A DNA stretch of 60,685 nt from an uncultured SAR86 cluster bacterium (GTDB lineage: Bacteria; Pseudomonadota; Gammaproteobacteria; Magnimaribacterales; D2472): contig CACBPP010000005.1 of NCBI GenBank assembly GCA_902541175.1, forward strand, positions 1-60,685, given 5' to 3'. Below, one piece after another: positions 6,829 through 10,107 of the stretch. Below the pieces are notes generated by a model. The model worked only from the letters and a program-made list of their open reading frames with translations. It was not told where the DNA came from and searched no databases. Both the position numbers and the translations under genes were made by a program. How positions within the stretch are numbered: position 1 is the stretch's first letter; every line of letters starts with the position of its first letter.

Positions 6829-7101
6829 TTAGTTTAGCAATTTTTTGATTTTGTTTGATGCCTTAAAACTGAGCTTATTCATACTAGGTATTATATATGA
6901 TTCTTTGGTTTTTGGGTTTCTTCCAATTCTTTTGGGAGTGTTTTTAAAATCAAATGAACCAAAATGACTTAATTTTATTTTTTTTGATTTTGCATTATTT
7001 TTTATAATGTCTAAAAAACTCTCAAGAATTTTTTTACTAACATCGATAGATAATTTTGTTGAAGAGCTAATCTCCTTACTTATATATTTTTTATTAGTCA
7101 T
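6829..7101 (-). CDS. ihfA: Integration host factor subunit alpha
   Basis: A 90-aa DNA-bending protein of the HU/IHF family, which pairs with IhfB (encoded at 52909-53202) for nucleoid organisation and regulation. The HU/IHF signature is seen as LSHFGSFDFKNTPKRIGRNP, with the DNA-inserting proline region in the RIGRNPKT arm. Position directly after pheT is the classic gammaproteobacterial order and separates it from HU. The pheT stop and ihfA start are tightly coupled. It is lysine-rich, as expected from low GC. Confidence 0.9.
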   Translation of the reverse strand: MTNKKYISKEISSSTKLSIDVSKKILESFLDIIKNNAKSKKIKLSHFGSFDFKNTPKRIGRNPKTKESYIIPSMNKLSFKASNKIKKLLN

Positions 7102-9024
7102 TTAATAGTCTAAACCCGGGACTGCAACGTCGCTTACAGATAATGCTGTTTTGATTATATCATCAAGAATTTTATTAACATCATTATCAGTCATTGTTTT
7201 CATTGATGATTGAAAAATAAATCTAAATCCAATCTTAATTTCTTTTTTGTCATTATTCTTATAGAAATCGAAGACAAAACTTTCTTTTAAGTTTATGTGC
7301 TCATAATTTAGAACCTTATATTCAAGCTCTTTTAGGTTTGAGAAATTTAAAACTGAAAATGATATGTCTTTGGTTGAAGAAGGAAATTCAGAAATAGGTT
7401 CATATATTATATTTGGTCTTGATTTTGTTATAGCAGAACTATAATCAAGAATAGATTTTGGGATCTCATCTATATTTAGCTCAAGATAGACTATTTTATT
7501 TTTAATTTTTGTATCCAGGCTTTCCCTTGATATCAGTTCAAATTTAAAATTAATGTCTTTTGATATTTTCTGTAAAACACCTGCAAAATACTTCTCGTCT
7601 ATTTTTCGTGAAAAGTCTTTATAATTCTTGTCAACTCTTCCACTGGCTATAATCCCAATTTTTCTTTTAAAGTGAAAATCCTCAGTGATTTTGTCAAAGC
7701 TATAAATATCAGATATCTCAAATAACTTGATGGAATCTTTTTGTCTTCTTTCGTTATATAGAAGATTATTAAGCAAAGATTCTTTTAGCCTTCCTCTAAG
7801 ATAATTCCTATTTACATCCAAAGGATTATCAATTTTTATCAAATCATTTCCTTCATTGTTATTTACAAAAGGATTATTTATAACTTCATAAAAACCATTA
7901 TCAATTAGTAAACTTTTTATTTTTGAATCTATTTCGTCGATGTTACCTGATTTTATACTATCTATTTTGAATCTTTTTGGTTTAATGTTGTCATATCCAA
8001 TTATCCTAGCAATCTCCTCAGCTAGATCGTTGCTATTTGAAATATCATTACGATATGAAGGAATACATAACTCACTTCCATCTAAATAAAACCCTAGATT
8101 AGTAAGTTTCTCTATACAAAAATCATAGGTTAGTTTTGTTCCCAATATGCTATTAATTTTATTGACATCAATCTTAATAGACTTAATTGGTAATTCATCA
8201 TATTTTTTAGTGAAAAATTGAATATTTTTAATAGTGGAGTGTTTTTCTATTATATGAAGGAATCTTCTTAAAACATTTTCATGACAGTTATGATCAACTC
8301 CTCTCTCAAATTTATAAGCAGCCTCAGAACTAATATCATATCTTACTGCTTTTCCAGAAATAATTTCAGGATCAAAATATGCACATTCAATTAAAACTGA
8401 TCTTGTTTTATCGGAACAAGATGAAGACATATCTCCAACAATTCCAGCTAAATTGATTATATTTTCATTGCTTTTAAAAACAGAATTTCTTCCATTTAAG
8501 CTAATTTTTTTACCAAGAAGTGTATTAAAATCATATTTTGTATCAATTTCTTCAAATATAATCTTCTTTCCAATCTTATTAAAGTCATAACAATGTGTAG
8601 GTTGGCCAGTTTCATATGCTACGTAGTTCGAAATATCAGTGAAGAAATTATTTTTATTTAATTCTAGATTTTCAAAGTAGTCTTTGAGCTCGCCAGAATA
8701 TTGAGATAATTCTTCTTCAATATCAACTTTCAAAAATGATATTTTTTTACAACCAGTTACAAATTTATTCTCAAAGTCTATTTCTAATTTATTTAGTTGT
8801 TCCTGATATAGTTGTTTATCCTCATTCAAATCAAAAAAAACAGATAAGTCTCTTAGAAGACCGTTGACAGATAAGCAGTCTCCCCTATTTGGAGTAAATT
8901 CAATATCAAAGATACCATCATGCACTTCGTGCTCGTGTCCTAATTGGAATAATCTTTTTGATATATCTTCAATTGAGGGTTTACCAACTATCCTGGAAGA
9001 AAGATCTTTATAAAAAATTTTCAT
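7102..9024 (-). CDS. pheT: Phenylalanine-tRNA ligase beta subunit, lacking the tRNA-binding OB domain
   Basis: PheRS beta subunit, which charges tRNA-Phe together with PheS. It is 640 aa against about 795 in E. coli. The N-terminal 35 residues go directly into FDIEFTPNRGDCLSVNG, the segment that normally follows the EMAP-II-like OB-fold; that domain of about 110 residues is absent. The B3/B4 editing region (for example QPTHCYDF), the B5 region (INSILGTKLTYD...IPSYRNDI) and the catalytic-like core remain. The FDX-ACB anticodon-binding domain is kept at about 545-640 (EFPSSTKDISF). ATG 9024 overlaps the pheS stop (ATGA). No frameshift is evident, so this looks like genuine domain loss. Confidence 0.95.
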   Translation of the reverse strand: MKIFYKDLSSRIVGKPSIEDISKRLFQLGHEHEVHDGIFDIEFTPNRGDCLSVNGLLRDLSVFFDLNEDKQLYQEQLNKLEIDFENKFVTGCKKISFLKVDIEEELSQYSGELKDYFENLELNKNNFFTDISNYVAYETGQPTHCYDFNKIGKKIIFEEIDTKYDFNTLLGKKISLNGRNSVFKSNENIINLAGIVGDMSSSCSDKTRSVLIECAYFDPEIISGKAVRYDISSEAAYKFERGVDHNCHENVLRRFLHIIEKHSTIKNIQFFTKKYDELPIKSIKIDVNKINSILGTKLTYDFCIEKLTNLGFYLDGSELCIPSYRNDISNSNDLAEEIARIIGYDNIKPKRFKIDSIKSGNIDEIDSKIKSLLIDNGFYEVINNPFVNNNEGNDLIKIDNPLDVNRNYLRGRLKESLLNNLLYNERRQKDSIKLFEISDIYSFDKITEDFHFKRKIGIIASGRVDKNYKDFSRKIDEKYFAGVLQKISKDINFKFELISRESLDTKIKNKIVYLELNIDEIPKSILDYSSAITKSRPNIIYEPISEFPSSTKDISFSVLNFSNLKELEYKVLNYEHINLKESFVFDFYKNNDKKEIKIGFRFIFQSSMKTMTDNDVNKILDDIIKTALSVSDVAVPGLDY

Positions 9025-9746
9025 TTAAATTGGTTTAAGAAATCTAAATTTGATTTGTAGAACTCTCTAATGTCATTCACTTCATATAGAAGCATAGCTA
9101 TTCTTTCGATACCAAGACCAAAAGCTAAACCGCTATAAAGCTCATGATCTATTTTACAATTCTTAAGAACTATAGGGTTCACAATTCCACATCCAAGAAT
9201 CTCTAACCACTTGCCTTCTTTTGATAGGATATCTACTTCAGCAGAGGGCTCAGTAAAAGGAAAATATGATGGCCTAAATCTGATCTGATTGTCTTCTCCA
9301 AACAGTTCATGGACAATTTTAAATATTAAACTCTTTAAATTAGCAAAACTTATATCTTTATCAATACATATTCCTTCGATTTGATGAAACATTGGAAGAT
9401 GAGTAGCATCATCATCTTTTCTGTAAACTTTTCCTCCCGAAATTAAAGCCAAAGGCGGAGTTCTCTCTAACATACCTCTAATCTGGACTGGTGATGTATG
9501 TGTTCTTAAAACTCGAGATCTGCCCTCAACATAAAAAGTGTCATGCATTTGTCTTGCTGGATGCGACTCTTTAATATTTAACATATCAAAGTTATATTCT
9601 TCCGATTCTATTTCTGGTCCATCTATAGCTTCAAACCCAACAGATTGTAAAAAATTTATAATTCTATCTTTTGTTAAGTTTATTGGATGTCTAGAACCTT
9701 CAACTTTTATTATGTTTGGTTCATTAATGTCTTTTTTATCTGACAC
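9021..9746 (-). CDS. pheS: Phenylalanine-tRNA ligase alpha subunit, lacking the N-terminal coiled coil
   Basis: The catalytic alpha subunit of PheRS, 241 aa against 327 in E. coli. Class II motifs are intact: HPARQMHDTFYV, RTHTSPVQIR, FHQIEG, RFRPSYFPFTEPSAE and FGLGIERIAML. The first residues align with about residue 85 of the E. coli protein, so the N-terminal coiled-coil arm that grips tRNA is missing. The start is GTG (9746) without a clear ribosome-binding site. Upstream the frame has no ATG or GTG before a stop lying inside rplT, so a longer N-terminus is not hidden by mis-annotation. It pairs with the equally shortened PheT. Confidence 0.95.
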   Translation of the reverse strand: MSDKKDINEPNIIKVEGSRHPINLTKDRIINFLQSVGFEAIDGPEIESEEYNFDMLNIKESHPARQMHDTFYVEGRSRVLRTHTSPVQIRGMLERTPPLALISGGKVYRKDDDATHLPMFHQIEGICIDKDISFANLKSLIFKIVHELFGEDNQIRFRPSYFPFTEPSAEVDILSKEGKWLEILGCGIVNPIVLKNCKIDHELYSGLAFGLGIERIAMLLYEVNDIREFYKSNLDFLNQFK

Positions 9747-9759
9747 GAGAAAAGTGTTT

Positions 9760-10107
9760 TTAGCTAATTGCTGTTCTTACAATTTTTTCGAAAGCTGGAG
9801 AATCATTTATAGCCAAATCAGATAATATCTTTCTATTAAGCAATATATTCTTTTTATTCATAGCATTAAGAAGATTTGAATAGGTTACATCTAGGTTTCT
9901 TGAGCCTGCGTTAATTCTTGAAATCCATAAAGATCTGAATGAACGTTTTTTATTTTTTCTGTCTCTAAAAGCATACTGGAGCGACTTAATGTTTGATTGC
10001 TTAGCAGTTTTATATAGCCTACTTCTAGCTCCATAATGTCCTTTTGTAGCATTAAGAACTTTTTTATGTTTTGCTTTTGCTGTAACTGATTTTGTAACTC
10101 TTGGCAT
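9760..10107 (-). CDS. rplT: 50S ribosomal protein L20
   Basis: A 115-aa protein of normal length that binds 23S rRNA early in large-subunit assembly. The start MPRVTKSVTAKAKHKKVL, the KGHYGARSRLYKTAKQ segment and the basic N-terminal extension identify L20. It sits between rpmI and pheS, the usual order. In E. coli L20 represses rpmI-rplT by binding the mRNA; whether that occurs here cannot be told. Confidence 0.98.
   Translation of the reverse strand: MPRVTKSVTAKAKHKKVLNATKGHYGARSRLYKTAKQSNIKSLQYAFRDRKNKKRSFRSLWISRINAGSRNLDVTYSNLLNAMNKKNILLNRKILSDLAINDSPAFEKIVRTAIS

Follow-up and report, generated by a model that had tools for sequence, protein, structure and literature searches.

The pheS and pheT genes at positions 7,102 to 9,746 of a 60,685-nucleotide stretch of DNA from an uncultured SAR86 cluster bacterium (contig CACBPP010000005.1, assembly GCA_902541175.1; the whole stretch is called the window here) were found to encode a phenylalanyl-tRNA synthetase (PheRS) without the N-terminal coiled coil of PheS and without the EMAP-II-like B2 domain of PheT. 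With a probability of about 0.75, we regard it as a functional bacterial two-subunit PheRS, the only one found in its genome, which was reduced in two steps and reads an ordinary tRNA-Phe without the coiled-coil clamp. The functional reading is supported by the absence of any other copy among the matches found, by the conservation of the PheS core and by the agreement of the structure models with solved PheRS enzymes.

Both losses are clean. Residues 6-241 of the window's PheS align with residues 93-327 of Salmonella PheS, and residues 7-241 with 94-327 of E. coli PheS. Thus, the protein begins where the core of an E. coli-type PheS begins, at around residue 93, in agreement with an earlier note on this DNA that had put the loss at about 85 N-terminal residues. 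The core was matched strongly (PF01409, E 1.5e-95; TIGR00468, 303.4 bits against a cut-off of 237.45), and a Pfam search gave no match to the coiled-coil family PF02912 in this PheS or elsewhere in the genome. There is no space for the N-terminal domain upstream either, since the rplT stop (position 9760) lies only 13 nt before the pheS start. In PheT, residue 33 directly precedes the counterpart of E. coli residue 153, so that B2 and its short linkers are gone from inside B1, and none of the 108 B2 positions (E. coli PheT 42-149) is filled in the alignment, as expected from the excision of about 110 residues previously proposed. The catalytic, editing-region and FDX-ACB parts do remain, as the same note had stated: Pfam matches above cut-off were obtained in PheT for B3/4, B5, the catalytic-like module and FDX-ACB, the match to B1 being weak and under cut-off, and PheT aligns over its full length to the HMMER profile. 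The AlphaFold2 model of PheS (pLDDT 86.9) had bacterial PheRS 4p75 as its best solved match (Z 32.6, rmsd 6.8, 233 residues aligned), and that of PheT (pLDDT 89.1, pTM 0.68) had bacterial PheRS 6p8t (Z 39.1, rmsd 21.0, 603 residues aligned), although the placement of domains in the single-chain PheT model is unreliable because of the large rmsd.

Among named loci, those closest to the window belong to SAR86 cluster bacteria. In its genome (1.155 Mb in 13 contigs, 90% complete), a single PheS core was found, together with a single PF01588 domain that forms the C-terminus of methionyl-tRNA synthetase (MetRS). Since only one PheS core, no PF02912 and no PF01588 outside MetRS were detected, no second full-length pheST, which the earlier note had named as a possible objection, was found in this assembly with the PheS core and PF02912 searches.

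The distribution of the two losses was followed across the order. Four SAR86 families are recognised in the available text of PMC11582366; the window's family, f1, is most likely D2472 (Suzuki), and f4 is most likely TMED112 (CHAB-I-7), a name deduced for f4 because a TMED112 locus (L079) shares an exact 300-nt pheS stretch with an f4 genome. In a survey of 60 genomes including the window's, 41 had a PheS match and 19, many of them incomplete, had none. The PheS frames of the 41 fell into two classes, a short one of 240-256 codons (27 genomes; 21 f1, 6 f4) and a long one of 325-352 codons (14 genomes; f2, f3), and PF02912 was detected in 14 of the 60 genomes, exactly those with long frames; the same search recovered it in 10/10 bacterial control genomes. 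Two genomes assembled in one or two contigs (G012 and G044; 91% and 93% complete) gave no PheS match over cut-off, perhaps because of an assembly gap, as rpoB is likewise not matched in G041, a single-contig assembly. When more of the order was sampled, PF02912 was detected in 80 of 151 genomes, including 17 f1 genomes from genera g194, g195 and g197, with scores below those of most f2 and f3 genomes; 51 of the 71 genomes without a match were not itemised. PheS frames of 241-251 codons characterise the f1 genera g2, g192 and g193.

Complete gene pairs were then compared. From 53 SAR86 loci (L032-L083 and L085), two were left out of the PheRS trees (L082, L083) and six were excluded for want of a PheT longer than 600 aa, either because the frame is broken (L039) or because of contig ends (L041, L052, L054, L056, L077). 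The 45 loci kept plus the window make 46 coil-less pairs, which were set against 16 loci of f2/f3 and, from the 17 coil-bearing loci of f1, a further 10; one f2 gene (L232) is cut at its end. As to L039, a metagenome-assembled SAR86 locus, its best pheT frame has 158 codons. The coiled coil is absent from 46/46 rows of a single gene clade, with 0-12 of its 80 positions filled, and present in the 26/26 other SAR86 rows, whereas B2 is absent from 72/72 SAR86 PheT sequences of all four families (each f2 row retaining 5 stray residues). Because B2 is missing also in the coil-bearing families and genera, the losses were stepwise, B2 first and the coil later, and the concerted loss that the earlier note had proposed is not supported: all 72 lack B2, but only 46 of them the coil. 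B2 is dispensable elsewhere too, since 3/10 outgroup rows (L088 and L098, Syntrophomonadaceae; L105, Bacillota) have no B2 but a full, normal PheS; the loss in Bacillota presumably occurred independently of that in SAR86.

At a larger scale, in a phylum sample of 299 genomes including the window's, PF02912 was found in 297 at E <=0.1 and in 296 above cut-off (G069 having only a marginal match, E 0.007). The two genomes without it were the window's and G168, which also lacks a PheS core match, and hence the window's genome is the only one of the 299 with a PheS core but no coiled-coil match. Among the best-scoring matches listed for this sample, all frames had at least 319 codons.

These counts also bear on an assembly or gene-calling artefact, that is, a deletion, a wrong start or a frameshift. 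Such an error is suggested by the 13 contigs and 90% completeness of the window's genome, but its probability is negligible: coil and B2 are missing from all 46 pairs, most of which come from single-cell and metagenome assemblies distinct from one another, 27 of the 41 matched genomes have short PheS frames, and rplT leaves no room upstream. The missing domains are no sequencing gap, since the architecture is common to all the complete coil-less pairs, and the alignment across related genomes, one of the checks proposed beforehand, contradicts the sequencing deletion that had been raised as an objection.

Alternatively, a second protein, coiled-coil or EMAP-II-like, could provide the missing contacts in trans. 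Genes of 110-118 codons for an EMAP-II-like domain on its own do exist in f2, f3 and f4, but in 12 loci (L158-L167, L170, L171) each such frame lies directly downstream of a short metG and represents the MetRS C-terminus. No stand-alone EMAP-II protein, which had been suggested as a partner to look for, was found in the window's genome, whose single PF01588 domain is fused to MetRS, and the candidates of the sister families were rejected as detached MetRS C-termini. PF02912 gave no match in the coil-less genomes searched, although a strongly diverged partner would escape this search. Overall, supply in trans seems very improbable. The MetRS genes themselves differ in organisation: f2, f3 and f4 have a frame of 544-586 codons followed by the separate EMAP-II-like frame, and the window's family has the domain inside one MetRS frame of approximately 650 codons.

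The history of pheST differs from that of other genes. The 46 coil-less enzymes form one clade, with members from both f1 and f4, in PheS, PheT and joint trees (FastTree support 0.89-0.97). A mixture-model PheRS tree built from 44 of 82 rows (including 10 of the 19 coil-less f1 rows and 4 f4 rows) likewise joined coil-less f1 and f4, with an SH-aLRT of 100 and a stem of 1.46 changes per site, and rejected all f1 as one clade (p 1.7e-34). Conversely, the rpoB tree placed coil-less and coil-bearing f1 in one clade (SH-aLRT 100) and rejected coil-less f1 with f4 (p 1.4e-5). Identities calculated for 10 of the 19 coil-less f1 rows, with an f4 set of 4 rows labelled by sequence match and 6 loci placed in the f4 clade by tree, showed the same conflict. 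As with rpoB, infC of coil-less f1 is closer to coil-bearing f1 (69%) than to f4 (45%), and rpmI agrees weakly (66% and 59%), whereas the order is reversed for pheS (median 55% to coil-bearing f1, 73% to f4) and pheT (30% and 45%); for ihfA there were too few pairs. Nor can the high f1-f4 identity of pheS be put down to a slow rate of change, since within coil-less f1 its conservation is about the same as that of infC (81% and 77%). The conflict of pheST with rpoB and infC suggests that the minimal enzyme was probably transferred between two SAR86 lineages, replacing the resident pheST in place, in either direction between the f4 lineage and part of f1. Two independent coil losses, in f1 and in f4, joined in the tree by long-branch attraction, would account for an rpoB tree that holds f1 together and for the long branches that meet in the PheRS tree; nevertheless, we consider this quite unlikely, given that coil-less f1 enzymes are nearer to f4 than to coil-bearing f1 in both subunits and that the same anticodon-domain replacements, described below, are common to f1 and f4.

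While the enzyme changed with the loss of the coil, tRNA-Phe did not. A single tRNA-Phe (GAA, L115) was found in the window's genome, with 30 of 33 tRNA loci scanned, and its 76-nt sequence is identical in 30 of 36 f1 genomes, the window's included. Likewise, two f4 genomes with a coil-less enzyme (L204, L205) share an identical tRNA-Phe with three f3 genomes with a coil-bearing one (L206, L207, L221). The window's gene differs from this form common to f4 and f3 at position 60 only, where it has C and all 18 non-f1 genes, coil-less f4 included, read T; the comparison leaves out the coil-bearing f1 genera. The available text of PMC9976931 counts nucleotides 20 and 59 among the E. coli identity elements and also names the anticodon and A73. 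In our own numbering, the window's tRNA-Phe has U at 20, U at 59, anticodon GAA and A73. A co-evolved tRNA-Phe was thus rejected in the main, as f4 and f3 genomes carry the same gene, and since that gene is nearly unchanged, the tRNA to be read by the smaller enzyme has to be the same.

In 13 of the 60 genomes, a further stretch of 41-57 nt, at about 7 kb or less from the intact gene and on the same contig, also matches the 3' part of tRNA-Phe (93-100% identity; e.g., G004:C5, G012:C2, G024:C4, G016:C1). These additional matches, either fragments or whole genes, may be such as integration at tRNA-Phe would leave.

In the B8 domain of Thermus PheRS, Asp729, Tyr731, Ser742 and Arg780 are given as contacts of G34 (PMC9976931, available text). 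Their spacing (0, +2, +13, +51) is closely reproduced in E. coli by D742, Y744, S755 and R794 (0, +2, +13, +52), and MAFFT and HMMER profile alignments pair the same residues. The Ser742-equivalent is Lys in 46/46 coil-less rows and Ser in 36/36 coil-bearing ones. Similarly, a Pro-Gly or Glu-Gly tail takes the place of the C-terminal Leu-Arg in 46/46 coil-less rows, the Arg being kept in 34/36 coil-bearing rows (the exceptions are one gene cut by a contig end and one Lys). Of the other two contacts, the Asp729-equivalent is Asp in all coil-less rows and the Tyr731-equivalent is Tyr in 23 and Phe in 23. We hypothesise that the Lys, Lys597 in the window, takes over a lost contact. The different mode of tRNA-Phe recognition advanced in the earlier note gains from these two clade-specific replacements at G34 contacts and from a tRNA-Phe that stayed as it was when the coil was lost; the mode itself, without the coiled-coil clamp, we infer from the sequences, together with retention of the (alpha-beta)2 assembly. 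Lost editing was rejected, since the aligned editing positions His265, Glu334, Gly315 and Gly318 (E. coli numbers) are kept in all rows. PheT positions 250, 264 and 266 (E. coli numbers) carry residues that occur in 44, 44 and 45 of the 46 coil-less rows and in no other row.

Plain streamlining is an alternative account, in which dispensable parts were lost, charging became less efficient and no new recognition mode arose, the changes in the anticodon domain being due to drift. The small genome, the long PheRS stem (1.46) and the drift of coil-bearing f1 genera at two G34-contact positions are in line with it. However, the change of Ser to Lys and the loss of Arg are fixed throughout the clade despite a median PheT identity of 53% within coil-less f1 (10 rows), and PF02912 is retained in other genomes of the phylum sample with a size of 0.9-1.2 Mb (G177, G189, G221, G240, G275, G281, G352), which makes streamlining alone unlikely, though still worth considering.

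Several points weigh against a functional minimal enzyme with a remodelled anticodon pocket and a transferred operon segment. The window's PheT scores 358.1 bits, under the NCBIfam pheT_bact cut-off of 402.65. The G34-contact residues were assigned from the Thermus ones through their spacing and through alignments rather than by superposing structures, and drift in the pocket is not unique to the minimal clade, since coil-bearing f1 rows (L222-L231) have Phe at the Tyr731-equivalent in 10/10 and Asn at the Asp729-equivalent in 5/10. Six of the 36 f1 genomes yielded no full-length identical tRNA-Phe match, only partial or diverged ones (G032, 91%) or no full-length match at all. With regard to the transfer, both the mixture-model PheRS tree and the rpoB tree come from a quick search; in the former, the long branches of coil-bearing f1 and of the minimal clade meet and the outgroup is not one clade. 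Finally, rplT gives no clear verdict, with coil-less f1 at 69% identity to coil-bearing f1 and 67% to f4.

Taking both sides together, the minimal PheRS of the window may have originated as follows. The loss of B2 would predate the divergence of the SAR86 families, and the ancestors of the coil-less gene clade would have dropped the PheS coiled coil at a later time, in a single event. The minimal pheST was then probably passed, keeping its place in the operon, from one to the other of two lineages, f4 (TMED112, CHAB-I-7) and a part of f1, the family of the window. The enzyme would read tRNA-Phe by its acceptor end and a remodelled anticodon pocket, in a charging mode like that of mitochondrial PheRS but set on a bacterial two-subunit scaffold with the editing domain kept. 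This full scenario, in which the elbow clamp was dropped, the pocket was rewired (Lys for Ser, Arg lost), charging relies on two points, editing was kept and the enzyme spread by in-place replacement, is put forward tentatively, at somewhat below even odds.

Bacterial PheRS is reported to depend critically on the coiled coil in its interaction with tRNA (PMC7948948 and PMC3275996, available text). SAR86, a common marine group, thus provides a natural experiment, with coil-bearing and coil-less enzymes facing an identical tRNA-Phe, from which the purpose of the coil could be learned; the two fixed anticodon-domain changes are the first candidate sites to probe, and the minimal enzyme offers a small bacterial PheRS scaffold. 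The features of the locus are collected in the table below; on the minus strand, the order infC, rpmI, rplT, pheS, pheT and HU/IHF-like gene corresponds to infC-rpmI-rplT-pheS-pheT-ihfA of E. coli, and pheS and pheT overlap by 4 nt.

Table. Features of the pheST locus, in coordinates of the window
Feature	Position	Strand	Basis
pheS, 241 aa, GTG start; class II catalytic core only, no N-terminal coiled coil	9021..9746	-	Pfam, alignment
pheT, 640 aa; B1, B3/4, B5, catalytic-like module and FDX-ACB (B8), no B2	7102..9024	-	Pfam, profile alignment
Gap of 13 nt between rplT stop and pheS start	9747..9759		Reading frames
rplT (L20), upstream neighbour of pheS	9760..10107	-	E. coli gene order
HU/IHF-like gene at the place of ihfA	6829..7101	-	E. 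coli gene order
PheT junction, residues 33/34, site of the missing EMAP-II-like B2 inside B1	8923..8928	-	Alignments
B3/4 editing domain, PheT residues 113-262, with the counterparts of E. coli His265 and Glu334 conserved	8239..8688	-	Pfam, alignment
FDX-ACB (B8) anticodon-binding domain; Pfam match to residues 545-627, extended to the C-terminus	7105..7392	-	Pfam, AlphaFold2
Lys597, replacing the Ser aligned with T. thermophilus Ser742 (G34 contact)	7234..7236	-	Alignments; PMC9976931 (available text)
Pro636, replacing the C-terminal Arg aligned with T. thermophilus Arg780 (G34 contact)	7117..7119	-	Alignments; PMC9976931 (available text)

A search of open-access titles and abstracts found no coil-less bacterial PheRS and no SAR86 PheRS. 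Compared with the bacterial heterotetrameric enzymes (E. coli, Thermus thermophilus, Pseudomonas, M. tuberculosis), the SAR86 PheRS is alike in its neighbouring pheS and pheT genes, its matching folds, the class II core of PheS and the B1, B3/4, B5, catalytic-like and B8 parts of PheT, but differs in having neither the PheS coiled coil nor B2 and in the replacement of the Ser742- and Arg780-equivalents. The enzymes of Syntrophomonadaceae and some other Bacillota (L088, L098, L105) resemble it in that 0 B2 residues are aligned in PheT, but they keep the PheS coil, with 80/80 positions filled. Archaeal and eukaryotic cytosolic PheRS beta subunits are not known to have B2 either, and the alpha subunits carry other N-terminal extensions. 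The structural matches of the SAR86 PheT include beta chains of this type, human 3l4g_B (589 aa) and Plasmodium 7by6_B (606 aa), although the sequence matches are far weaker. In Mycoplasma, PheRS is also reduced in small genomes, but there it is editing that is degraded, according to the available text of PMC4014445 and PMC7373986, whereas SAR86 keeps the editing His and Glu and loses coil and B2. Mitochondrial PheRS (FARS2 type) combines core and B8 in a single chimeric chain that has none of the remaining domains of the beta subunit. In the available text of PMC3275996, the catalytic core and B8 are described as enough for charging, and in that of PMC9976931 the mitochondrial enzymes are described as having a restricted identity set, the yeast enzyme not contacting nucleotide 20. 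Such a fusion of core and B8 in one chain was not found in the window, where pheS and pheT are two genes; unlike the mitochondrial enzyme, the SAR86 PheRS consists of two chains and keeps B1, B3/4, B5 and the catalytic-like module.

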